A stretch of DNA of 64,000 nucleotides, from assembly GCF_027922305.1 (NCBI RefSeq), contig NZ_BSFK01000007.1:62001-126000 (forward strand), given 5' to 3'. This DNA comes from Methylopila jiangsuensis (GTDB lineage: Bacteria > Pseudomonadota > Alphaproteobacteria > Rhizobiales > Methylopilaceae). The translations under genes were made by a program, and so were the position numbers. This document shows, piece after piece, positions 2,614-54,259 of this stretch (its first letter is position 1; every line of letters starts with the position of its first letter). The notes beneath the pieces were generated by a model. That model saw only the letters and a program-made list of their open reading frames with translations. It did not search any database and was not told the DNA's origin.

Positions 2614-3456
2614 TCAGTGCGCCAGCAGCAGCGGGACCGGGCTTTCGCTCAGCATGCGCTGGGTGACGCCGCCGAACAGCCATTCCAGCAGCGAGGAGCG
2701 GGCGAAGGCGCCCATGACGATCAGGTCGGCGCGCACGAGCCCCGCCTGATCGCGCAGGCTCGCGCCCACGTCGTCGCCCGCGGGCAGCTCCTTGACCACG
2801 GCGTTGACGCCGTGGCGGCCGAGCGCGACCGTGAGGTCCGCGCCCGAGGCGCTGCGGGACAGGTCCTTCTCGCCCACATAGCAGACGATCTCCACCGTCT
2901 CGGCGGCGCGCAGCAGCGGCAGGGCGCCGGCGACGGCGCGGGAGGCCGGCTCGCTGCCGTCCCACGCCACCAGCACGGTCCTGCAGGCGAAGGCGTCGAC
3001 GCCCCTGGGCACGACGATGGCGGGGCGTCCGCCGGCGAAGATCAGCGCCCGTAGCAGGCCGCCGTCCACGGAGAGGACGCTCGCATCCGCGTCGAGCAGA
3101 ACGAGGTCGCTGACCCGGGCCTGCGCCAGCAGCCGGTCGCGCAGCTCCGCGTAAGGAAGCTGGGGCGCTTCGGTGACGCAGGCGACGCCGCCGAGCGCCG
3201 CGCCGCGCCGAACCTCGTCCGCCACCTGCTCGGTGAGCGCGCGCAGGCGCTTGTTCTCCGCCGCGATCAGGCCGCCGGCGGTGGCGCCGCCCCGGCCATG
3301 GGGCAGGTCCAGCGGCACCGACGCGGAATGGACCACTAGGCGGGCGTCGGCCGCGGCCGCCAGAGACAGGCCATAGGCGAGCGCGGCCGAGCGTTCGCCC
3401 TCGCCCTCTTCCGTGGCGGCGACGAGGATGGTCTTGACGTTCGCGATCAGCGGCAT
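2614..3456 (-). CDS. Universal stress protein, tandem UspA domains
   Basis: A 280-aa protein made of two UspA folds in tandem, a class of cytoplasmic stress proteins that often bind ATP. The N-terminal half starts with ANVKTILVAATEEGEGE. The second half starts at CRTVLVAWDGSEPASRA and ends with VMGAFARSSLLEWLFGGVTQ, close to the UspA nucleotide-binding pattern of glycines followed by small residues, then SPVPLLLAH. The start at 3456 has a GGAGGA ribosome site; the frame is open upstream to 3543 without one. It lies 68 bp upstream of the aminopeptidase on the same strand, so co-transcription is possible. The stress signal cannot be read from sequence. Confidence 0.9.
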   Translation of the reverse strand: MPLIANVKTILVAATEEGEGERSAALAYGLSLAAAADARLVVHSASVPLDLPHGRGGATAGGLIAAENKRLRALTEQVADEVRRGAALGGVACVTEAPQLPYAELRDRLLAQARVSDLVLLDADASVLSVDGGLLRALIFAGGRPAIVVPRGVDAFACRTVLVAWDGSEPASRAVAGALPLLRAAETVEIVCYVGEKDLSRSASGADLTVALGRHGVNAVVKELPAGDDVGASLRDQAGLVRADLIVMGAFARSSLLEWLFGGVTQRMLSESPVPLLLAH

Positions 3457-3552
3457 GGCGCGTGTCCTCCGAAAGGGTTCGGAGACCGTTCCTGCCGGGG
3501 GCCGCGCGCTCAGCCGATGATCTGGATCAAGCGGCGCGATCACGCTTGCGTG

Positions 3553-4425
3553 TCAGGCGGCGAGCACCAGCGTGGACCAGCCCTCGAGCTGACGCGCGAC
3601 GACGAGGTTGAGGCCCTGCGCCCGGTAGGCGTCGAGCACGCGCTCCTCCTCATGGGTCATCAGGCCGGAGAGCACCACCCGGCCGTCCTCCGCCAGATGG
3701 CGCTTCACGTCGGGCGCGAGCTCCACCAGCGGGCCGGCCAGGATGTTGGCGACGATCAGGTCGAACGGCCCGCGTTCGGCGAAGACCGGATGGTCGAAAC
3801 CGGTGGCGTGAACCGCCTCCACGAAGGCGCCGGCGCCGTTGGCCTCGGCGTTCTCGGCCGCGATCTGGACCGACATCTCGTCGATGTCGGTGGCGAGCAC
3901 GGGGCCGCGCTGGGCGAGCGCCACCGCGATGGCGAGCACGGCGGTGCCGGCGCCGAGATCGAGCACGCGCTCGAAGCGGCGCTCGGTCAGCAGCTCGTCC
4001 AGCGCCAGCAGGCAGCCCCGGGTGGTGCCGTGATGGCCGGTGCCGAAGGCGAGCGCGGCCTCGATCTCGATGCCGATGGCGTCCGCCGGGATCTTGTCGC
4101 GATCGTGGGAGCCGTAGACCACGAACCGGCCGGCGGGCACGGGGGCCAGGCCTTCGAGGCTCTTCGCCACCCAGTCCGCCTCCTCGATCGCGTCGGCCTC
4201 GATGCGAAGCCCCGCGCTTTCCGGCCCGAGCGCCTCCCGCAGCGCCGCGGCCAGCTCCTCGGCGGTGGCGTCCGGGCCGCCGTAGACCTCCACCGCCCAC
4301 TCATCCTTGGCGGTCTCGAACGCGGAGACGGAGGCCTCGCCGAAGGGGAAGGCGTCCTCCAGCACGTCGGCCACGCGCTTGGCGGTGGCTTCGTCGAGAC
4401 GCAGGCGGACGAGCGGGGTGGACAT
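3553..4425 (-). CDS. prmA: Ribosomal protein L11 methyltransferase
   Basis: SAM-dependent methyltransferase that trimethylates ribosomal protein L11. The 290-aa product has an N-terminal alpha/beta substrate-recognition domain and a C-terminal class I methyltransferase domain. The SAM-binding motif I is DLGAGTAVLAIAVA, followed by the acidic strand-end motif in ATDIDEMSVQIAAENA and the PrmA-type catalytic-loop sequence VANILAGPLVEL. GTGHHGTTRGCLLAL is the usual PrmA segment before motif I (GTGxHxTT). The ATG at 4425, followed by STPLVRLRLDE, has a purine-rich GGGAG upstream; a longer frame to 4464 lacks one. It is a single gene on the minus strand, 96 bp from the stress-protein gene. Confidence 0.95.
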   Translation of the reverse strand: MSTPLVRLRLDEATAKRVADVLEDAFPFGEASVSAFETAKDEWAVEVYGGPDATAEELAAALREALGPESAGLRIEADAIEEADWVAKSLEGLAPVPAGRFVVYGSHDRDKIPADAIGIEIEAALAFGTGHHGTTRGCLLALDELLTERRFERVLDLGAGTAVLAIAVALAQRGPVLATDIDEMSVQIAAENAEANGAGAFVEAVHATGFDHPVFAERGPFDLIVANILAGPLVELAPDVKRHLAEDGRVVLSGLMTHEEERVLDAYRAQGLNLVVARQLEGWSTLVLAA

Positions 4426-4520
4426 GGGCGGCTCCCGTAATGGCGGCCGACCGGCCGCGGGCACGCTTATGGACGGAAATTCCGGTCGCGCAAGGGCGCA
4501 GGGGCCGCGCCTGAACGCGC

Positions 4521-4551
4521 GAAGGCCGGCGGAGGGCGTCCGCCGGCCTTC
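4521..4551 (-). terminator. Hairpin terminator downstream of ugd
   Basis: A perfect 13-bp stem (4521-4533 pairing with 4539-4551) with a 5-nt loop lies 26 bp past the UDP-glucose dehydrogenase stop. Only a short run of uridines follows, so termination may be imperfect. Its position between two minus-strand genes suggests it separates ugd from prmA transcription. Confidence 0.7.
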
Positions 4552-4576
4552 GGAGACGATGCGGATCAGGTCGCGA

Positions 4577-5881
4577 TCAGCCGATGCCGACGCCCTGATA
4601 CTGGAAGCCGCGCTCGATCATGTCTTCCTTGCGGTAGACGTTGCGCAGGTCGACCACGACCGGGGACTTGAGCAGGCTCTTCACGCGGGTCAGGTCGAGC
4701 GCGCGGAACTGGTCCCATTCGGTCAGGATCACCAGCGCGTCCGCGCCGTCGATCGCCGAATAGGCGTCGTCCACATAAGCGACGTTGGGCAGGTGCGGCT
4801 TGGCCTGGGCCATGGACTCGGGGTCGTAGGCCTTCACCTTGGCGCCGGCCGCTTCGAGCGCCGGGATGATGGCGAGCGAGGGCGCCTCGCGCATGTCGTC
4901 GGTGTTCGGCTTGAAGGCGAGGCCCAGAACGCCCACGGTCTTGCCCGAGAGGTCGCCGCCGAGCGCGTCCTTGATCCGCTCCGCCATGGCGAGCTTGCGG
5001 GCCTCGTTCACCTCCTCGACCATCTCGACGATCTTGATGGGGGTGCCGAAGTCGCGGCCGGTGCGCACCAGCGCGCGGGTGTCCTTGGGGAAGCACGAGC
5101 CGCCAAAGCCGGGGCCGGCGTGCAGGAACTTGGAGCCGATGCGGCCGTCGAGGCCGATGCCGCGGGCCACTTCCTGAACGTTCGCGCCGGCCTTCTCGCA
5201 GAGATCGGCGATCTCGTTGATGAAGGTGATCTTGGTGGCGAGGAAGGCGTTGGCGGCGTACTTGATCAGTTCGGCGGTGCGGCGGCCGGTGAACACCAGC
5301 GGCGCCACGTTGAGGTAGAGCGGGCGGTACAGCTCCTCCATCACGTCCTTGGCGCGCTCGTCCTCGACGCCGACCACGATGCGGTCCGGGCGCTTGAAGT
5401 CGCCGATGGCGTTGCCTTCGCGCAGGAATTCCGGGTTGGAGGCCACGGAGACGTCCGCGTCCGGGCGGGTCTCCTTGATGATGCGGGCGACCTCGTCGCC
5501 GGTGCCGACCGGAACCGTCGACTTGTCCACGACCACGGTGTAGCCGTCGACCGCCTTGGCGATCTGACGGGCGGCCTCGTAGACGTAGGTCAGGTCCGCA
5601 TGGCCGTCGCCGCGCCGCGACGGGGTGCCGACCGCGATGAACACCGCGGCGGCGTCCTTCACGGCGGGTCCGAGATCGGTGGTGAAGGTGAGGCGGCCGG
5701 CTTCCACGTTGCGGGCGACCAGATCGTCGAGGCCGGGCTCGTAGATCGGCATGACGCCGTTCTTCAGCCCTTCGATCTTGGCGGCGTCGGTGTCGACGCA
5801 GGTGACTTCATGTCCGAAGTCCGCGAAGCAGGCGCCCGAAACAAGCCCCACATAGCCAGAACCGATCATCGTGACGCGCAT
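4577..5881 (-). CDS. ugd: UDP-glucose 6-dehydrogenase
   Basis: Oxidises UDP-glucose to UDP-glucuronate with two NAD+, supplying a precursor for exopolysaccharide and envelope sugars. The 434-aa length is standard. The N-terminal NAD-binding fold is MRVTMIGSGYVGLVSGACFA, with the acidic residue of CVDTD at the end of beta-2. The catalytic cysteine lies in GFGGSCFPKDTRAL, and the C-terminal UDP-binding domain contains VLGLAFKPNTDDMREAPS. The ATG at 5881 follows an AGGGGGA ribosome site and sits exactly at the Rossmann strand; upstream codons open to 6244 are not used. About 260 bp upstream separate it from glgA, enough for its own promoter. Confidence 0.96.
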   Translation of the reverse strand: MRVTMIGSGYVGLVSGACFADFGHEVTCVDTDAAKIEGLKNGVMPIYEPGLDDLVARNVEAGRLTFTTDLGPAVKDAAAVFIAVGTPSRRGDGHADLTYVYEAARQIAKAVDGYTVVVDKSTVPVGTGDEVARIIKETRPDADVSVASNPEFLREGNAIGDFKRPDRIVVGVEDERAKDVMEELYRPLYLNVAPLVFTGRRTAELIKYAANAFLATKITFINEIADLCEKAGANVQEVARGIGLDGRIGSKFLHAGPGFGGSCFPKDTRALVRTGRDFGTPIKIVEMVEEVNEARKLAMAERIKDALGGDLSGKTVGVLGLAFKPNTDDMREAPSLAIIPALEAAGAKVKAYDPESMAQAKPHLPNVAYVDDAYSAIDGADALVILTEWDQFRALDLTRVKSLLKSPVVVDLRNVYRKEDMIERGFQYQGVGIG

Positions 5882-6141
5882 GCGGCCATCGTCCCCCTGA
5901 GGTCCAAGGCGCCGGGGCCGTTCTGGGCGTCCAGCCCCACCCGGCGCGCCGCTCTCACGCGAGCGGCCCTTCGTCTTAAGAGAGCCCCTTCGCAAACGCA
6001 ACACAGGCCGGTGATCGCCGCAGGGCTGCCTGGGATCGCCCCGCGCACGGCCGCTGGAGCGCAAGGCTTTGAACGAAAAGACGGGTTCGGGCCGGGACGC
6101 CGCCCGCTCCGGCGCGACGTCGCGCCGCGCTGGACGGAATG

Positions 6142-7584
6142 TCAGACCGGTCCGGCGAGGCGGCGGTAGAGATCGGCGTAGACGGCCGCGGAGGCGTTCC
6201 ACGACACGTCCGAGCGCATGCCGTTGCGCTGGATTCGACGCCATGTCTCGGGCTCTGCGTGCAGCGCCGCGACCCGGCGCAGCGCCGCCTCCAGCGCGGC
6301 CTGATCGCCGCTCGGAAACTGCAGCCCTGTGGCGACGCCGGCTGCGAGCGCGGCCGGATTGGCGTCGATCACCGTGTCGGCGAGCCCGCCCACCCGCGCC
6401 ACCACCGGCACGGCGCCGTAGCGCAGGGCGCAGAGCTGGGTCAGCCCGCAGGGCTCGAAGCGCGAGGGCACGAGAACGGCGTCCGCGCCCGCCTGCAGCA
6501 GATGGGCGCGGCGCTCGTCATAGCCGATGAAGGCGCCGATCCGGCCCGGATTGGCCTCCGCAAGGGCCCGGAAGCGGTCTTCCAGCCAGGCCTCGCCCGA
6601 GCCGATCAGCGCCAGAGAGCCGCCGCTCTCCAGCAGAGTCGGCGCAGCCTCCGCCAGCAGGTCGAGCCCCTTCTGGCTCGACAGCCGGCTGACCACGCCG
6701 AACAGCGGCCCGTCGCCCAGATCGAGCCCGAAGCTCTGGGCGAGCGCCCGGCGCGACGCCTCTCGGCCTTCCAGATTGGCCGCGGAGAACGGCGCCGGCA
6801 GCGCCGAATCCGCCTCCGGGTTCCACACGTTGGTGTCGATGCCGTTGAGGATGCCGGACACGTCCGCCGCCCGCGCCCTGAGCAGCCCGTCAAGGCCGAG
6901 TCCTGCGTCCGGCTGCAGGATCTCGCAGGCGTAGGTTGGGGAGACGGTGGTAATGTGGTCGGCGAACTGGAGCGCGGCCTTCAGGAACCCGACGCCGCCG
7001 AAATACTCCACGCCTTCGATGGCCATGGCCTCGGGCGGCAGGCGCAGCGCCTCGCGCATGGATTCCGGGAACCAGCCCTGGAACGCCATGTTATGGATGG
7101 TGGCGACCGTCTTCGGCCGGGGGCCGGGGCCGTAGGCGAGATAGGCGCCCGCAAGCCCCGCCTGCCAGTCGTGCAGGTGCACGATCTGCGGCGCCGGCAG
7201 GGATGCGGCGCCCCGCCCGATTTCCGCGGCCGCATAGCCCAGCGCGGCGAAACGGAAGGCGTTGTCCGCCCAGTCGCTTCCGTCGGGGCCGGCGTAGAGG
7301 CCGCCGTCGCGGGCGTAGAGATGGGGCGCGTCGAGGACGAGCAGATCAAGGCCCCTGGCGGTCGCCGCCAGAATGCGCGCCGGACCGCCGAACAGGTCGT
7401 CGAACCGGGCCACCACCGCGCCGTCGATGAGCGCCGCCATCACCGCCGGATAGCCGGGCAGCAGCGTTCGCACCGCGACGCCGTGGGGCGCGAGCGCGCC
7501 GGGCAGCGCGCCCGCCACATCCGCGAGCCCTCCGGTTTTCACGAGCGGGATGACTTCGGACGCGACGGCGAGGACGGAGGTCAT
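6142..7584 (-). CDS. glgA: Glycogen synthase (ADP-glucose type)
   Basis: GT5 glycosyltransferase that extends alpha-1,4-glucan using ADP-glucose. The 480-aa product has the diagnostic N-terminal ADP-glucose-binding loop VKTGGLADVAGALP. A second conserved block is YDERRAHLLQAGADAVLVPSRFEPCGL near the C-terminus, carrying the catalytic Glu of FEPCGLTQL. HLHDWQAGLAGAYL and TIHNMAFQGWFP are typical bacterial GlgA blocks. It is the last gene of a leftward glgP-glgC-(unknown)-glgA block, 42 bp after the unknown gene, so co-transcription is likely. No branching enzyme, debranching enzyme or phosphoglucomutase gene is visible in the window. Confidence 0.96.
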   Translation of the reverse strand: MTSVLAVASEVIPLVKTGGLADVAGALPGALAPHGVAVRTLLPGYPAVMAALIDGAVVARFDDLFGGPARILAATARGLDLLVLDAPHLYARDGGLYAGPDGSDWADNAFRFAALGYAAAEIGRGAASLPAPQIVHLHDWQAGLAGAYLAYGPGPRPKTVATIHNMAFQGWFPESMREALRLPPEAMAIEGVEYFGGVGFLKAALQFADHITTVSPTYACEILQPDAGLGLDGLLRARAADVSGILNGIDTNVWNPEADSALPAPFSAANLEGREASRRALAQSFGLDLGDGPLFGVVSRLSSQKGLDLLAEAAPTLLESGGSLALIGSGEAWLEDRFRALAEANPGRIGAFIGYDERRAHLLQAGADAVLVPSRFEPCGLTQLCALRYGAVPVVARVGGLADTVIDANPAALAAGVATGLQFPSGDQAALEAALRRVAALHAEPETWRRIQRNGMRSDVSWNASAAVYADLYRRLAGPV

Positions 7585-7626
7585 GGGAACCTGGAAAAGA
7601 AGCCTGTGCGACGTAACCCTAGCTGC

Positions 7627-8286
7627 TCAAATCCTGTCAGGCGAGGGCGGCCGAGGCGGCGTCTGAGGGTTTTGTGGCGCGGCTGGGCTGGATCGCCCGC
7701 AAGGAGCGTCCTGTCGCTCTCCGACGCTGATCCAAGCGCTTCTGTTGTCGGGATCGAAAGCCAGCATGACGACGGTCTGGCAATTGCGCGCGTTGCGCGT
7801 CGTCGACCGGGCGAGAAGCAGGACCAGCGGATGAATCTGGTCGATATGAGGCGTTTCGTAGAGTGAGTCCGCGATCATGTCTCGGCGCAGCAGCAGAAAC
7901 GTCCGGATCAGGGCCGCCTGTTCCATATTGGTCAGGGCGTCGTAAGTCGTGGCGAGGACGACCCTGCATTTGCGCTGTCCGGTCGGATTGCGCGCCACGT
8001 CGTTCTCGATGATCGCGAAGCGGCCGCCGTCTTCTCTCCAGGCGTTTTCGCGTTCTGGTCGAAATCCCCGATCGGCTCTCAACCCGGCCGGCGGCGCATA
8101 AGGCTTGAGGTCCGCGGTGTTCAAAGGCGTTCCATGCTCGATCGAGGCGATGCAGCGCTCCGCAAGATCCCGCCATTCGGCGCTGACGCGGTCGCGCGGC
8201 TCCCGCTCCATCAGCGCGCGAGCGCCGAGTCCCACGGCGAAGCCTCCGATGAGGATCGCCGCCCATACCCGAACGCGGAAGCCCAA
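7627..8286 (-). CDS. Unknown membrane-anchored protein inside the glycogen block
   Basis: I do not recognise this 219-aa product. It has one N-terminal hydrophobic helix (about residues 6-25, VRVWAAILIGGFAVGLGARA) with few charges, so it is either anchored or secreted, with the remainder probably periplasmic. The body contains three cysteines (in AERCIAS, RKCRVVL and RNCQTVV) and a Pro-rich, presumably disordered tail. The start is a TTG three bases after the glgC stop, which argues for translational coupling to glgC. Codon use is somewhat less GC-extreme than in glgA or glgC. Its place between glgC and glgA suggests a recent insertion or a lineage-specific partner; no function should be inferred from position alone. 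Confidence 0.7.
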   Translation of the reverse strand: MGFRVRVWAAILIGGFAVGLGARALMEREPRDRVSAEWRDLAERCIASIEHGTPLNTADLKPYAPPAGLRADRGFRPERENAWREDGGRFAIIENDVARNPTGQRKCRVVLATTYDALTNMEQAALIRTFLLLRRDMIADSLYETPHIDQIHPLVLLLARSTTRNARNCQTVVMLAFDPDNRSAWISVGERQDAPCGRSSPAAPQNPQTPPRPPSPDRI

Positions 8287-29878: not shown

Positions 29879-30553
29879 ATGAGATACGTTCTGATCGCGC
29901 TGCTCAGCCTCAACGCCGGCTATGTGGACGCCACCGGCTTCCTGGCCCTGCACGGCCTGTTCCCGACCCATGTGACGGGCAACTTCGTCACGCTCGGCGC
30001 GGCGCTGGCGCTGGGCGCCTCCGGCATTCTGGCCAAGGTGCTGGCGCTGCCGCTGTTCTGCGCGGTGGTGCTGGCGTCCCGGCTCGCCGGCGGCGGGCTC
30101 GACCGCATGGGATGGCCGGGCCTGCGCATCATGTTCGCGCTTGAGGCGGCGCTGCTCAGCGTGGCCGCGGGGCTGGCGCTGCGGCTCGGACCGTTTCCGG
30201 ACGGCGACGCCCCGACCGCGCTCGCGGTCGGCGGGGCGATGGTCTCCGCCATGGCGATCCAGAACGCGGTGCACCGGGTGCGCCTCGCCCACCTGCCGCC
30301 CTCCACCATCATGACCGGCACCACCACGCAGGTCATGGTCGATCTCGCCGACTTCCTCCGGCCCGCCGCGCCGGAGGTGCGCGCTGCCGCGCGCCGGCGT
30401 CTCGGCCCCATGTCGGCGGCGCTGGCCTTCTTCGCGCTCGGCTGCGGCGCGGCCGCCTTCGCCCATGTGCTGGACGAGAAGCTGAGCTTCCTTGTCCCTC
30501 CCATCCTCGCGTTAGCGACCCTGATCGCCGGCTGGCGCCACAAGGCGCCGTGA
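29879..30553 (+). CDS. YoaK family membrane protein (DUF1275)
   Basis: A 224-aa, roughly six-helix membrane protein. LLSLNAGYVDATGFLALHGL, FPTHVTGNFVTLGAAL and AMAIQNAVHRVRLAHLPPST with IMTGTTTQVMVDLADFL are the conserved DUF1275 blocks. Function unknown; the family is widespread and stress-associated in some species. It lies 51 bp after the metallo-hydrolase stop, so co-expression is possible. It marks the left boundary of the low-GC nuclease island. Confidence 0.88.
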   Translation: MRYVLIALLSLNAGYVDATGFLALHGLFPTHVTGNFVTLGAALALGASGILAKVLALPLFCAVVLASRLAGGGLDRMGWPGLRIMFALEAALLSVAAGLALRLGPFPDGDAPTALAVGGAMVSAMAIQNAVHRVRLAHLPPSTIMTGTTTQVMVDLADFLRPAAPEVRAAARRRLGPMSAALAFFALGCGAAAFAHVLDEKLSFLVPPILALATLIAGWRHKAP

Positions 30554-30583: not shown

Positions 30584-30614
30584 CCGTCATGCCCGCCATC
30601 GGCGGGCATCCACG
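30584..30614 (+). repeat. Dispersed intergenic palindrome, copy 2 (left border of the island)
   Basis: Asymmetric version of the element: the left arm begins CCGTCATGCCCGCC and the right arm ends GGCGGGCATCCACG, with a 9-bp perfect core stem. An oppositely oriented copy at 33709-33741 lies at the other end of the low-GC island. Confidence 0.75.
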
Positions 30615-30770
30615 ATTTCCTGCGTCGGGACGCCCTGAAACGCTCATGTGGTAACCGGTATCAGAACTGGCCGAGCGGCGATTGGGGCTCCGCTGTCAGG
30701 TCGGCTCGGCGCCAAGAGCGGACATCAACCAGCAGCCCAAAGCTAACCTTCAAAGCTTGATGCCTCAACC

Positions 30771-30793
30771 CTGACTGGTAGGCTGCCAGTCAG
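30771..30793 (+). promoter_or_regulatory. Inverted repeat overlapping the ribosome site of the ParB-like gene
   Basis: Eight-base arms CTGACTGG and CCAGTCAG separated by 7 bases end 8 bases before the ATG at 30802. The right arm runs into the AGAGGA ribosome site. It could be a protein operator for autoregulation or an RNA hairpin limiting translation. Inference only. Confidence 0.5.
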
Positions 30794-30801
30794 AGGAAGC
30801 C

Positions 30802-32106
30802 ATGGCTATAAAAAAACTCGCATTGAGTGCGCTGGTTGTGAACCGCGCAAATGACCGTCACGGGGAGCTTGAGAACGAGACAGCCGCGATTGCATGGCTC
30901 TTTAAAGCGCGTGAAACGCACATGCGAAGTCTGACAAAGGACATCGTGGAGCAGGGCGAAATATACGAGTATCCTCTCGTTTCTCCTGATAAGTCAAAAT
31001 TCATCGTATTCGACGGCAACCGCCGTGTGACGTGTCTCAAGCTTCTCGACGATCCGCGCCGAGCGCCGACTACAGAGCTCCAAGCATTTTTCCGGGACCA
31101 GAAGGCGCTTTGGAAAGGCGCATTCCCTACAGAGATCCAGTGCCAGGTCGAAGCTGACCGTGACCGGATCGACGAAATCCTCTTCCGTCGCCACACCGGC
31201 TCGCAATCCGGCGTCGGTCAGAGCACCTGGGACGACCGGATGAAAGCAAACTTCGTCACGCGCACAGGCAAGGGTGGCGGGCCGCAAATTGCAGACGAGA
31301 TCGAAAAGCGGCTGTCAGAGGCGAGCCTCCTGCCCACTCGTCGGAAGATCCCCCGCTCGACGCTGAACCGCCTGTTGTCGTCTGAACCTTTCCGACATCG
31401 CGTTGGCGTCAGTATGAAGGGCGGCCGGTTTCAATTCATACAAGACGAGGCCAAATCGCTCACCGCTCTGGCCCGTATCGCAAAAGACATGGCCGAACGC
31501 GATCTCGTCCTCGGCGATATTTGGGACATCGACGGCAAGCAGGGCTACCTCGACAAGCTTGAACTCGAGGGCGTCCTTCCCAAAAAAACAGTCACGGTGA
31601 CGACAGCTGAGCCCACGAAGTCGGCTGAAAAGCCCGCAAAGGTGAAGCCAAGCGCCAAGGCGACGCCGACCCTCCGCACGACGCTTATTCCGCAGAAAGA
31701 TTTCGATCTTAGTTGGCCGGGACGGCTTCAACGCCATCACCGCATCTGGGAAGAATTACAGTTTCACCTCGATTTGCGAACCCATCCCAATGCGATCTCG
31801 GTTCTCATGCGCGTGCTCATCGAACTCGCGTTGGAGAATTACATCAAAGAAGCGAAGGTCACAGCCCACGAGAACGACAAGCTCGCGACCCGGCTGGAGA
31901 AGGCAGGCCTGCACCTTCAGGCGGCTGGAAGGATTGACGCAAAGAAAATCGAGGTGTTGAAGAAGTTCAAGCAAGGCGAAAAGCTTGTGTCTGCTGACAC
32001 GTTGAACAAGTATGTTCACTCAACGAATTTCGCGCCTTCGCCTGAGCATCTGATGTCTATCTGGGATAGCTTGGCCGACGTGATCGTCGAGATGTTGAAG
32101 GTCTAG
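30802..32106 (+). CDS. ParB/Srx-like N-terminal domain protein of the low-GC island
   Basis: A 434-aa protein not assigned to a characterised family. Residues 1-130 look like a ParB/sulfiredoxin-type domain: a loop FIVFDGNRRVTCLKLL (DGNRR at 71-75) occupies the position of the catalytic/nucleotide motif, then HTGSQSGVGQSTWDDRMKA. Residues 265-300 form a Lys/Pro/Ala-rich linker. The C-terminal helical domain ends in NKYVHSTNFAPSPEHLMSIW, a motif type I associate with C-termini of defence-related proteins. Codon use is markedly AT-richer than in flanking genes. Its stop shares the four bases CTAG with the convergent GIY-YIG gene. Nucleic-acid sensing or cleavage is plausible but unproven. Confidence 0.7.
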   Translation: MAIKKLALSALVVNRANDRHGELENETAAIAWLFKARETHMRSLTKDIVEQGEIYEYPLVSPDKSKFIVFDGNRRVTCLKLLDDPRRAPTTELQAFFRDQKALWKGAFPTEIQCQVEADRDRIDEILFRRHTGSQSGVGQSTWDDRMKANFVTRTGKGGGPQIADEIEKRLSEASLLPTRRKIPRSTLNRLLSSEPFRHRVGVSMKGGRFQFIQDEAKSLTALARIAKDMAERDLVLGDIWDIDGKQGYLDKLELEGVLPKKTVTVTTAEPTKSAEKPAKVKPSAKATPTLRTTLIPQKDFDLSWPGRLQRHHRIWEELQFHLDLRTHPNAISVLMRVLIELALENYIKEAKVTAHENDKLATRLEKAGLHLQAAGRIDAKKIEVLKKFKQGEKLVSADTLNKYVHSTNFAPSPEHLMSIWDSLADVIVEMLKV

Positions 32107-32597
32107 TCAATCTTCTTCTGAACGTCGGATTCCTGTCTCTGATACTTCGGCAGCGTCAGCTTCTGGTTGTCCATCTCGATCTGGAATTCGAGCATGCCGT
32201 CATGGCACCAATAGATGAAATTGACGGAGTTCATGTCAGGATCTTCGTCGCTGAAGGCAGTAAAATTATTGACGAACCACTCGCGCATGTCGTCTTCGCC
32301 TATGAAATTGAACCACTCACCCGCGTACCAGAAGCGGGAGAGGCCTGTGTGTAGTAACCGCTCGGTTTGTGACATTCCCCAGAACGGTTTGAAGCCAATG
32401 AGCTTCATATCGGGCAGCCACGTCTTCGCGGCTTTGCGACGCTCCTTCGTTGATCGGGTTTTCCCGATTTTGAAGCGCCCGTTGTCTTCGATCACATACA
32501 GATAACCGGGATCAACGCGCCGAACCTGCCAGACAGGCATGACGGTGCCGACGTTGCCGAAGTCATTCGATCTGCCCCGATGAGAACCCTCAGTCAT
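32103..32597 (-). CDS. GIY-YIG-type nuclease (T5orf172/Mug113-like)
   Basis: A 164-aa protein with the compact GIY-YIG layout: GYLYVIEDNGRFKIGKTRST (GIY-like strand at 31-36, KIGKT at 43-47), Arg residues of KERRKAA, SQTERLLHTGLS with a conserved Glu, and RFWYAGEWFNFI with the acidic residue expected late in T5orf172-type domains. The ATG at 32597 is one base after the HNH gene stop, with GAAGG about 8 bases upstream; the frame opens further to 32639 inside the HNH gene. It belongs to a two-gene minus-strand operon with the HNH gene. Base composition is AT-richer than native genes. Confidence 0.75.
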   Translation of the reverse strand: MTEGSHRGRSNDFGNVGTVMPVWQVRRVDPGYLYVIEDNGRFKIGKTRSTKERRKAAKTWLPDMKLIGFKPFWGMSQTERLLHTGLSRFWYAGEWFNFIGEDDMREWFVNNFTAFSDEDPDMNSVNFIYWCHDGMLEFQIEMDNQKLTLPKYQRQESDVQKKID

Positions 32598-32598
32598 T

Positions 32599-33498
32599 TC
32601 ATAGGCCTTCGATGCCCTGAGCCAGATCGAAATCGACACCAGCCTTCAAGGAAGGCTGCCCTATCAGTCGCGTCGCGTCCACATCCACTTCAAGCGTTAA
32701 CCCTAGTCGCTCAATCAGCGGGCTAAGCCCCGGGTGCTCCTTAAGCCATTCCACATAGCCTTTAATTGAGGGACCGCCGAGGTTCAGCGCGAATTCATAA
32801 CCATAGAAGATCAAGACGATGTAACGCTCACGTCGCCGGGTCAACAGCAGATCGATGATATAGCCCGCCTGAACCCAGTCTCCCGAGTCCGGGTGAGTCA
32901 TTAGGGTCTCTTCTGGATAGACTTGACGCATATGGAAGGGCCAATGATCGGCGTTGTCGCCGACGCGGACCCATCGGCGGATGCCGTCCCAGTGGGGATC
33001 ATCGATCAGGCGCTCGACATCAGCCGGTACCGCCGACAACCGCAAGGCGAGCACTTCCAGCGCGATCTTTGCCAAGAGCCGGGACATTTCGCGCTCTGGT
33101 GGTCGCATCTCGCGCGGGAACAGGATCGGAGTAAGGCTATGCTCGCTGGCGCCTCGGAGATGGGCCTGAATGGCCGCGGCGTCGCCGCTCCGTTCGAGTT
33201 GCAGCTCTGGCCCGCTCTGGCCGATCCGGAAGTTCACTCCGATGTCGAGCCCCGGGATGAAGCCGTACAGGCTGGGGTGCCGGCCTCTCTTGTTGGGGAT
33301 GCGATACCAAGCCCGGAGGTTCCGGAATGACTCGTGGGCGAGAAGCGGCTGTTCGATTTTGCGTGCGATGTAGTTGTTGCACGGGTCACAAATCATGCCT
33401 CTCGGCAGGACGATCCGGTTGTTACCTAAAGACTGTGGAATGACATGCTCCACACTCGTCGCCGTGTTTGACGGGACCTTGCAGAATAGGCAACGCAT
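32599..33498 (-). CDS. HNH endonuclease-domain protein
   Basis: A 299-aa protein whose first 50 residues form a zinc-stabilised HNH motif: MRCLFCKVPS (CxxC), SVEHVIPQSLG (Glu-His of the first strand), and GMICDPCNNYIARKIE (second CxxC with Asn). The remaining 250 residues have no domain I recognise; they contain a hydrophobic YIVLIFYGYEFALNLGG segment and may specify targets. The ATG at 33498 has AGGGG 8 bases upstream; a GTG at 33528 is an alternative. It is the first gene of the HNH to GIY-YIG operon, converging on the ParB-like gene. Composition is AT-richer than the surrounding chromosome. Confidence 0.75.
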   Translation of the reverse strand: MRCLFCKVPSNTATSVEHVIPQSLGNNRIVLPRGMICDPCNNYIARKIEQPLLAHESFRNLRAWYRIPNKRGRHPSLYGFIPGLDIGVNFRIGQSGPELQLERSGDAAAIQAHLRGASEHSLTPILFPREMRPPEREMSRLLAKIALEVLALRLSAVPADVERLIDDPHWDGIRRWVRVGDNADHWPFHMRQVYPEETLMTHPDSGDWVQAGYIIDLLLTRRRERYIVLIFYGYEFALNLGGPSIKGYVEWLKEHPGLSPLIERLGLTLEVDVDATRLIGQPSLKAGVDFDLAQGIEGL

Positions 33499-33590
33499 CG
33501 CCTCAGCCCCTATAACGTGGAAGTCCACAGCGGATCGGGGATCGGAGCGATCTCCGGGTTCGCGACCCTGGTCCGGCTCAAGGCCCCGTC

Positions 33591-33620
33591 AGTATAGATT
33601 CCGTCGAACCCTTTCGATAA
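33591..33620 (-). promoter_or_regulatory. Possible promoter of the HNH/GIY-YIG operon
   Basis: On the minus strand a TATACT hexamer (33591-33596) is preceded 18 bases upstream by TTATCG. This would place the transcript start about 85 bases before the HNH ATG. The -35 match is poor, so this is tentative. The rest of 33499-33766 holds no gene. Confidence 0.3.
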
Positions 33621-33708
33621 CAGTCTAGCTGAATGGAGCGCACAGCGGACCTTTCTAGCTGCCGCTATGGGCAGGAGCGGCGGTGGGGTGGTCCAGACAA
33701 TCTCAAGT

Positions 33709-33741
33709 CGTGGATGCCCGAGACAGGCTCCGGCATGACGG
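33709..33741 (-). repeat. Dispersed intergenic palindrome, copy 3 (right border of the island)
   Basis: Starts CGTGGATGCCCG and ends CGGCATGACGG, the reverse orientation of copy 2 at 30584-30614. Together they flank the three nuclease-type genes. It ends 25 bp from the flhA stop. Confidence 0.7.
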
Positions 33742-33766: not shown

Positions 33767-35935
33767 TCAGATGCTCGCCACCGTCTTCAGCCGGGCGCGG
33801 GGGTGGATTTCGTTCTGCGACATCACCGGCGTCTGGTTGCGGAAGCGCTCGACGATGGAGCGCACGAACGGCCGCGAGGCGGCGGAGGTGAGCAGCACCG
33901 GCGTCTCGCCCTGGCGGGCCGCCTCCTCGAAGCGGTCGCGCACCAGGCCGATGAAGTCGTGCAGCTTGGAGGGCGCCATGGCGAGCGAGCGGTCGTCGCC
34001 GGAGCCCACGATCGATTCGGCGAAGGTCTGCTCCCATTGCGGGGACAGGGTGACGAGCGGCACGTAGCCGCCGGGCGCCTGGTGCTGGGCGCAGAGCTGG
34101 CGCGACAGCCGGGCGCGCACATGCTCCACGATCTGGGCCGGCGAGCGGGTGAAGGAGGTCGCCTCCGCGATCCCTTCGAGAATCGTGCCGAGGTCGCGGA
34201 TCGACACCCGCTCCGCCAGCAGGAGCTGCAGCACCCGCTGGATGCCGGTGGTGGAGATCTGGCCGGGCACGATGTCCTCCACCAGCTTCTGCTGCTCCTT
34301 GGGTAGCTCCTTCAGCAGCTTGGAGACCTCGGCGTAGGACAGCAGGTCCGGCATGTTGGCCTTGACGATCTCGTTGAGATGCGTCGAGAGCACCGTGGTC
34401 GCGTCCACCACGGTGTAGCCGAGGATGTTGGCTTCCTCCCGCAGCGAGGCGTCGACCCATGTGGCGGGAAGGCCGAAGGTGGGCTCGGTGGTGTGGACGC
34501 CGGGCAGCGACACCTGCGCGCCGGTGGGGTCCATGGTCATGAACTGGTTCGGGTAGACCGCGCCGCCGCCGGCCTCCACCTCCTTCACCTTGACCACATA
34601 GGCGTTGGGGGCGAGCTGCAGGTTGTCGAGCAGGCGCACCTGCGGCATCACGAAGCCCGCCTCCGCCGCGATGGAGCGGCGCAGCGCCTTGATCTGTTCG
34701 GTGAGCTTGTCCGGGCCGGAGCTCGCGTCCACCAGCGGCAGCAGCGCGTAGCCGAGCTCGATCTTGACGTCGTCCATCTTGAGCGCGTCGGACGGCTGCT
34801 CCTCCGCCGCGGGCGCCGCGCCCGCCGCTCCCGGCCCGGCGTTCGCGCCGACGATCGCCGCCACCCGCGCGGCCTCCTCCGCGGCGCGCGTCTTGGAGGC
34901 GCGGTAGGCGAGCCAGCCCGCGCCGGCCGCAAGCCCCATGAACGGGATGAAGGGGATGCCCGGCAGCATGGCCATGATCGCCATCACCGCGGCTGCGAGG
35001 CCGAGCGCCTTGGGGTAGCCGGAGAGCTGGCGCACCAGCGCCCGGTCGGCGGAGCCCGAGACGCCCGCCTTCGACACCAGCAGGCCGGCGGCGGTGGAGA
35101 CGATCAGCGCCGGGATCTGGCTGACGAGGCCGTCGCCGATGGAGAGCAGGGTGTAGGAACGGGCGGCTTCGGCGAAGCCTAGGCCGTTCTGGGCGATGCC
35201 CACGATCATGCCGCCGATGATGGTGATGAACAGGATCAGCAGGCCGGCGATGGCGTCGCCGCGCACGAATTTCGAGGCGCCGTCCATGGCGCCGAAGAAG
35301 GTCGATTCGTCCTCCAGCTCCTTGCGGCGGGTCTTGGCGGTGGCCTCGTCGATCAGGCCGGCGGAGAGGTCGGCGTCGATCGCCATCTGCTTGCCGGGCA
35401 TGGCGTCGAGGGTGAAGCGGGCGGCGACCTCGGCGATGCGGCCCGAACCCTTGGTGATGACGACGAAGTTCACGATGATCAGGATCGCGAACACGATCAC
35501 GCCGATCACGAAATTGCCGCCCATGACGAAGGAGCCGAAGGCCTCGATCACATGGCCGGCGGCGTCGGTGCCCTCATGGCCGTGGCCGAGGATCAGGCGC
35601 GTGGAGGCGAGGTTGAGCGCCAGCCGCAGCATGGTCGCCACCAGCAGCACGGTGGGGAAGGCCGAGAACTCCAGCGGCTTCTCGATGAACAGCGCCGTCA
35701 TCAGGATCAGGACGGAGAGCGTGATCGAGATCGCCAGCAGCAGGTCCAGCAGCAGCGGCGGCAGCGGCACGATGAGCACGCACAGGATGACCAGCACCCC
35801 GAGCGCGAGGCCGAGATCGCCCTTGCGCAGCACGTCCAGCGCCTTGGCGAAGCCGGCCTGGCCCGCGAAGCCGCCCCCCGGGGCCCGCGCCGCGGCGGGC
35901 GCCGGCGCCTGACCCGTAACCGTGACGTCCGACAT
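33767..35935 (-). CDS. flhA: Flagellar type III export protein FlhA
   Basis: Export-gate component of the flagellar type III secretion system. The 722-aa product has eight hydrophobic helices in residues 35-330 and a large cytosolic domain. The FHIPEP-type blocks are clear: VATMLRLALNLASTRLIL, FVVITKGSGRIAEVAARF, TLDAMPGKQMAIDADLSAG and the charged loop ARFTLDAMPGKQ with RRKELEDESTFFGAMDGASK. No other flagellar gene is in the window, so flhA is isolated from the main cluster here. It is divergent from a chemoreceptor gene, with 166 bp between them containing two GTTAAC/TTAAC sites. Confidence 0.97.
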   Translation of the reverse strand: MSDVTVTGQAPAPAAARAPGGGFAGQAGFAKALDVLRKGDLGLALGVLVILCVLIVPLPPLLLDLLLAISITLSVLILMTALFIEKPLEFSAFPTVLLVATMLRLALNLASTRLILGHGHEGTDAAGHVIEAFGSFVMGGNFVIGVIVFAILIIVNFVVITKGSGRIAEVAARFTLDAMPGKQMAIDADLSAGLIDEATAKTRRKELEDESTFFGAMDGASKFVRGDAIAGLLILFITIIGGMIVGIAQNGLGFAEAARSYTLLSIGDGLVSQIPALIVSTAAGLLVSKAGVSGSADRALVRQLSGYPKALGLAAAVMAIMAMLPGIPFIPFMGLAAGAGWLAYRASKTRAAEEAARVAAIVGANAGPGAAGAAPAAEEQPSDALKMDDVKIELGYALLPLVDASSGPDKLTEQIKALRRSIAAEAGFVMPQVRLLDNLQLAPNAYVVKVKEVEAGGGAVYPNQFMTMDPTGAQVSLPGVHTTEPTFGLPATWVDASLREEANILGYTVVDATTVLSTHLNEIVKANMPDLLSYAEVSKLLKELPKEQQKLVEDIVPGQISTTGIQRVLQLLLAERVSIRDLGTILEGIAEATSFTRSPAQIVEHVRARLSRQLCAQHQAPGGYVPLVTLSPQWEQTFAESIVGSGDDRSLAMAPSKLHDFIGLVRDRFEEAARQGETPVLLTSAASRPFVRSIVERFRNQTPVMSQNEIHPRARLKTVASI

Positions 35936-54182: not shown

Positions 54183-54259
<77 letters not shown>

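Follow-up and report, generated by a model that had tools for sequence, protein, structure and literature searches.

A candidate mobile defence cassette in Methylopila jiangsuensis links a PD-λ-5_A-family ParB protein to GIY-YIG and HNH nucleases and lacks the PD-λ-5_B methyltransferase

Between a DUF1275 gene and flhA, in a 64,000-nucleotide stretch of the Methylopila jiangsuensis genome (contig NZ_BSFK01000007.1; hereafter the window), lies a compact insert of three genes encoding a ParB-like protein and, on the opposite strand, a GIY-YIG and an HNH nuclease. The preliminary description of this DNA had pointed to a low-GC three-gene stretch at this place, with a ParB-like gene carrying a DGNRR motif that converges on a coupled HNH/GIY-YIG pair, and to the lack of an integrase or transposase. 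The open reading frames (ORFs) and base composition bear out each of these points. The insert and its parts, in window positions, are:

30646-33704, no strand: inserted cassette of 3,059 bp with a guanine-plus-cytosine fraction (GC) of 0.567, splitting a host repeat doublet between DUF1275 and flhA
30802-32106, forward strand: PD-λ-5_A-family protein of 434 amino acids, with an N-terminal ParB/Srx NTPase fold and a probable C-terminal HEPN-like domain (PADLOC; AlphaFold2 with VIA-align)
30802-31212, forward strand: ParB/Srx-fold region, residues 1-137 (VIA-align Z 9.4 to 7bnk_A)
31012-31026, forward strand: (D/E)GNRR motif, residues 71-75, counterpart of the nucleotide-binding GERR box of ParB
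31714-32103, forward strand: probable HEPN-like C-terminal bundle, residues 305-434, with His406 at 32017-32019
32103-32106, no strand: CTAG, in which the convergent stop codons of the ParB and GIY-YIG genes overlap by 4 nt
32103-32597, reverse strand: GIY-YIG (T5orf172/MUG113) nuclease of ~164 amino acids (Pfam PF10544 E=2.9e-5, PF13455 E=7.4e-5)
32599-33528, reverse strand: HNH_5 (beta-beta-alpha-metal) nuclease of 309 amino acids (Pfam PF14279 E=4.7e-9)

All three ORFs are intact and their motifs are conserved: FDGNRR forms residues 70-75 of the ParB-like protein, and the Y, KIG, E..H and E residues of the GIY-YIG protein are invariant among nine aligned homologues. The HNH_5 gene starts at GTG 33528 or ATG 33498, and its stop codon is 1 nt from the ATG of the GIY-YIG gene. 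The genes have a GC of 0.557 (ParB), 0.525 (GIY-YIG) and 0.590 (HNH) against 0.693 for the window, and third-position GC is 0.67-0.70 against 0.92-0.96 for DUF1275 and flhA. The 3,059-bp insert contains no integrase or transposase ORF and no structured RNA, and no tRNA attachment site was found there, the sole tRNA of the window being at 54183.

The ParB-like protein is almost certainly a homologue of PD-λ-5_A. The PADLOC PD-Lambda-5_A models match it full length (residues 1-431, best E=7.6e-75), BLASTP aligns it end to end with the A protein of a Kosakonia plasmid (25% identity, E=2e-26), and phrog_9592 matches its N-terminal half. Pfam gave no match at E<=1, so neither a ParB family nor DUF262 was matched, and a sequence search of solved structures returned no significant relative. 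The protein does not fit a ParABS partition ParB, with ParA and a parS-binding helix-turn-helix (HTH): the cassette holds no ParA-like ORF and the protein matches no ParB Pfam family. The AlphaFold2 model, from an alignment built from genome loci only with no plasmid or phage rows, has a mean predicted local distance difference test score (pLDDT) of 78 and two folded parts. One, residues 1-137, can be superposed on ParB with bound CDP or CTP (Z 9.4, root-mean-square deviation 2.4 Å over 94 residues), and the other, residues 305-434, on HEPN domains (VIA-align Z 8.3 to the sacsin HEPN). When modelled alone, the C-terminal domain reaches a pLDDT of 90.5, and HEPN folds, or HEPN-like folds of nucleotidyltransferase partners, fill nearly all of its top 26 VIA rows (Z 5-8.5). 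From these models, the C-terminal domain is likely to be HEPN-like. Every one of the 32 aligned sequences has GNRR and His406. Fusions of ParB and HEPN were catalogued in 2013 by Anantharaman et al. (PMC3710099), for example Saro_3948, and they likewise carry both domains in one protein and are placed among conflict systems. Cthe_2314-type HEPN genes have no neighbours listed in that work; here they adjoin the ParB family. Saro_3948, not found in the part of pNL2 that was read, is at most a possible member of the ParB family of the window.

PD-λ-5 is an experimentally tested, broad-range anti-phage system described as a compact restriction-modification plus abortive infection (RM + Abi) system (Vassallo et al. 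2022, PMC9519451), and 'RM + Abi' is the only account of its mechanism that we found. The cassette resembles it in the full-length homology of the A component, a ParB-like protein of ~440 amino acids, with the GNRR motif and the invariant C-terminal His, and in a mobile or phage-borne distribution. It differs in having no B component, in having separate GIY-YIG and HNH_5 nucleases (HEPN elsewhere), and in having convergent genes rather than an A-B operon. The canonical order, A and then PD-Lambda-5_B, is seen in the Kosakonia plasmid and in a Paracoccus phage. By contrast, the cassette has no ORF for PD-λ-5_B, a Dam-type adenine methyltransferase, and no MethyltransfD12 domain was found in the genome, while control A/B loci do match PD-Lambda-5_B. 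The genome encodes N6/N4 methyltransferases of the class to which CcrM belongs. The preliminary description had matched the cassette to no named system. This no longer holds for the ParB protein, although it does for the arrangement, which lacks PD-λ-5_B: we found no description of a PD-λ-5_A-type ParB/nuclease arrangement in the open literature, most subscription journals and preprints lying outside our coverage. We read the cassette, as far as its sequence can tell, as a variant of PD-λ-5-type defence and not as a new kind of system. Because the locus would at best pass for a partial PD-λ-5, it probably escapes searches whose rules call for both A and B.

The association of ParB with nuclease genes was followed in 30 ParB relatives taken from bacterial genomes regardless of their neighbours, and in an even draw of 385 genomes of the class, also chosen regardless of neighbours. 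Eight of the 30 relatives share with the window a convergent GIY-YIG gene of one subfamily, its end overlapping that of ParB by the same 4 nt, and these nine loci represent nine species from several orders of Alphaproteobacteria. In the class sample, the ParB protein occurs in 7/385 genomes and the GIY-YIG subfamily in 3/385; the latter adjoins ParB in all three, two of them at only 45-48% ParB identity. Co-presence of the two alone gives p=2e-4 (two non-window genomes). We are confident from this pattern that ParB and GIY-YIG form one unit. A Cthe_2314-like HEPN gene adjoins ParB and/or GIY-YIG in L005, L006 (a fragment), L008, L011, L014, L016, L019, L020, L036, L037 and L098, and relatives usually have this gene in place of the HNH_5 of the window. 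Its subfamily occurs in one of the 385 class-sample genomes, between ParB and GIY-YIG, and in 10 other loci near ParB or what remains of it. Aligned copies carry the Rx4H motif, and their Pfam scores fall slightly below the curated cut-off. The ParB tree unites the window with L002 and L003, and among the next closest relatives of this clade are L005 and L006, which have HEPN; HNH_5 is found in the window and L002. The GIY-YIG and ParB trees, within their resolution, both group the window, L002 and L005. L012 has an HNH_2 gene upstream of GIY-YIG; its nearest relatives have HEPN. Because HEPN, HNH_5 or HNH_2 occupies it in related loci, the third gene slot beside ParB/GIY-YIG looks swappable, on few cases.

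The insertion site was compared with that of relatives, and it lacks the cassette in all 11 readable congeners. In ten of the congener regions DUF1275 adjoins flhA with none of the three cassette genes, and in the eleventh (L072) flhA is present, with neither DUF1275 nor the cassette seen nearby. The HNH protein was found in 1 of 18 genomes of the bacterial family, and the cassette is a recent, species-level acquisition. The sequences at its edges are:

29879-30553, forward strand: flanking DUF1275 gene, which adjoins flhA without the cassette in congeners
30584-30614, forward strand: left half of a split dispersed repeat doublet, host sequence
33709-33741, reverse strand: right half of the same split doublet, host sequence
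33767-35935, reverse strand: flanking flhA

The inverted palindromes had been proposed as the bounds of the island. They are present, with a common 16-nt arm that is 94% complementary; they are, however, the halves of a split host repeat doublet and not an element boundary. Their 14-nt core has 50 near-matches genome-wide, versus none for a reversed-pattern control. In the genome, 36 distinct head-to-head doublets with the pattern ATCCACG-N-CGTGGAT are intact; most measure 43-49 bp, and their inner geometry is that seen at the cassette; those viewed with their flanks mostly pair two different palindrome halves, as at the cassette. Joining the left flank (to 30645) to the right flank (from 33705) restores a 49-bp inner doublet, and an intact 47-bp doublet without the cassette lies at the equivalent place in congener G011, just downstream of flhA; thus the cassette sits within a host repeat. 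Comparable inverted flanks are absent from 19 other loci of the ParB family, so the palindromes are not part of the cassette, and the idea that they are transposon or integron-like element ends was rejected. The trinucleotide CTC is present at both junctions and may be a target duplication or microhomology. The 36 doublets (example G000:C7:135973-136017) are present although a search of the genome turned up no RAYT-type Y1 transposase.

Taken together, the A-type ParB, the GIY-YIG linkage, the empty site, the low GC and the missing B methyltransferase lead us to favour, with some reserve, a mobile defence cassette: a nuclease-armed PD-λ-5 variant without a methyltransferase and with swappable accessory nucleases, acting against phages or plasmids. 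The preliminary description had suggested a defence or mobile-DNA-control module, and a defence role is very probable, as suggested by the acquired compact cassette, its nucleic-acid-acting folds and the restriction or defence neighbours of its relatives. Whether it belongs to an undescribed modular alphaproteobacterial defence system, with a ParB-HEPN sensor/effector, a convergent GIY-YIG, a swappable third nuclease (Cthe_2314-type HEPN RNase, HNH_5 or HNH_2) and no self-modification enzyme, we judge to be evenly balanced. Several observations weigh against the favoured reading. Of the trio, ParB and GIY-YIG do recur together in other genomes, but the full set with HNH_5 is common to just one other ParB locus, L002 from Roseivivax, where the HNH gene is truncated. 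Among the 26 relatives with readable flanks, 16 have ParB without GIY-YIG or HEPN, and thus the nucleases are not obligatory partners; GIY-YIG and HNH_5 relatives are also found without ParB. The HEPN-like call depends on fold similarity, with Foldseek E values for the C-terminal domain of 0.39 or worse, and helical bundles can score so by chance. No profile match links this C-terminus to the separate HEPN gene family, and the canonical Rx4-6H motif is absent, there being no Arg 5-7 residues upstream of His406.

Some of the same observations could be explained if the ParB-HEPN protein were a stand-alone, one-gene defence (an orphan PD-λ-5_A), with GIY-YIG, HNH and HEPN as separate, co-accumulating defence cargo. 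Many relatives do have the ParB gene alone between housekeeping genes, and HNH_5 and GIY-YIG relatives also occur in Septu-like and other defence loci. We nonetheless consider this unlikely, given that the 4-nt stop overlap is kept in nine species from several orders, that the GIY-YIG subfamily is beside ParB in 3/3 occurrences in a sample drawn regardless of neighbours, and that the GIY-YIG and ParB trees concur on the grouping of the window, L002 and L005 as far as they are resolved. That GIY-YIG and HNH are free-standing homing endonucleases inserted beside an unrelated ParB gene is highly improbable. Homing endonucleases often have one or other of these nuclease folds, and one source (PMC10448857) is reported to list T5orf172 genes with the nucleases of phages; even so, neither nuclease gene interrupts a gene or intron, no relatives of either were found by pattern scan in 2.9 million viral contigs, the arrangement with ParB is conserved, and relatives stand beside defence operons. 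Only slightly less improbable is decay: a PD-λ-5 locus whose methyltransferase was lost and which has no present function. PD-λ-5_B and MethyltransfD12 are indeed missing, and the ParB gene is broken in L028 and split by an insertion sequence (IS) in L036; yet the three window ORFs are intact with conserved motifs. In addition, none of the closer alphaproteobacterial ParB loci examined showed a PD-λ-5_B-like neighbour; the loss thus looks old, and the protein is still conserved.

Under the favoured reading, a mobile nuclease-armed PD-λ-5 variant, we propose a tentative division of labour among a switch, an RNA arm and DNA-cutting nucleases. The ParB/Srx domain, with its GNRR pocket, would bind nucleotide and act as a DNA- or infection-responsive switch; the HEPN-like domain, together with the separate HEPN RNase in relatives, would be an RNA-targeting (abortive) arm; and the separately expressed GIY-YIG and HNH_5 proteins would cut invader DNA. 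Because the locus has no self-marking methyltransferase, the choice of target would need a phage-specific modification, an infection signal or a host-wide methylation mark such as that of CcrM. Host-wide methylation as a self mark is possible, since methyltransferases of CcrM's class are in the genome. By analogy, this outline would follow the logic of GmrSD and SspE, its nearest functional parallels, which combine a ParB-fold NTPase with HNH (PMC10952713). The cassette resembles the type IV systems GmrSD, SspE and BrxU in pairing a ParB-fold NTPase with an HNH-class nuclease and in having no self-methylating enzyme in the locus. It differs from them in that it has no DUF262 or DUF1524 match, its HNH is an HNH_5 (PF14279) on a separate gene, and a GIY-YIG is added, so the parallel is functional only. 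CMoRE (PD-T4-3), a GIY-YIG type IV restriction system (PMC12923530), also uses a GIY-YIG nuclease in anti-phage defence; it is a single gene with its own modification-sensing domain, whereas the GIY-YIG of the window is a short T5orf172-type protein, which probably would need a partner. Methyltransferase-less A relatives tied to recognisable nucleases would offer a direct way to learn what ParB-HEPN proteins sense and what they do.

Relatives of the nucleases were found in other defence settings. On two Agrobacterium plasmids, more distant HNH_5 and GIY-YIG relatives (~40%) adjoin each other without ParB, beside Septu-like PDC-M01A/B genes; in Ensifer, a GIY-YIG relative lies between a CARF protein and a Septu-like pair; and in Rhizobium, an HNH_5 relative follows a DUF262-HNH gene. 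The plasmid loci with HNH_5 and/or GIY-YIG relatives beside PDC-M01A/B are:

L109, 3872-7974 (Agrobacterium/Ensifer plasmids, as for the next two)
L110, 3884-7937
L111, 4944-8683

These plasmid relatives are possible Septu-associated accessory nucleases, and the likeness to Septu (PtuAB/PDC-M01) lies in this adjacency to PtuA-like operons. The window, in contrast, has no PtuA-like ATPase, and its HNH matches PtuB only at E=0.007. Since relatives adjoin both Septu-like and DUF262-HNH genes, the HNH_5 and GIY-YIG families appear to be accessories common to several defence loci, and GIY-YIG, when its distant relatives are included, is not a partner of ParB alone. This suggests that PD-λ-5-, Septu- and type IV-like loci draw on each other's accessory nucleases.

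The ParB gene has a GC below that of its flanks in 17/17 loci. Its family has defence neighbours that include Mrr (L004), DpnI (L029), PDC-S46 (L020), Schlafen AlbA_2 (L008) and an apparent TIR protein, judged by eye (L027). In L016 (9088-13315), the ParB and HEPN genes directly precede Vsr and an apparent C5 cytosine methyltransferase, called from sequence only, and the pair is thus within a restriction-modification locus. In many other members the ParB gene has only housekeeping genes around it, and some hosts may therefore use the protein without partners. A viral origin of the close relatives was rejected, as a pattern scan of the 2.9 million viral contigs of IMG/VR gave no relatives of the three cassette proteins; phage records hold distant A proteins, the one exception being a 4.5-kb unannotated 'phage' contig from human faeces at 73%.

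Further features were seen at individual loci. In L036 (Azospirillum ramasamyi, 3284-8160), it is an IS5-like element that interrupts the ParB gene, and the HEPN gene is in pieces on either side of an IS1595-family transposase. A 600-residue HTH protein, with weak HTH_3 and TPR-like Pfam matches, is encoded ~0.1-2 kb upstream of ParB in L009, L021 and L022. The DUF1275-flhA spacer of congeners may be a variable-cargo site: it holds an apparent ParDE-like toxin-antitoxin pair in G014 (L071), a LysR-type regulator in G010 (L063), and a larger uncharacterised gene in G011 (L068).

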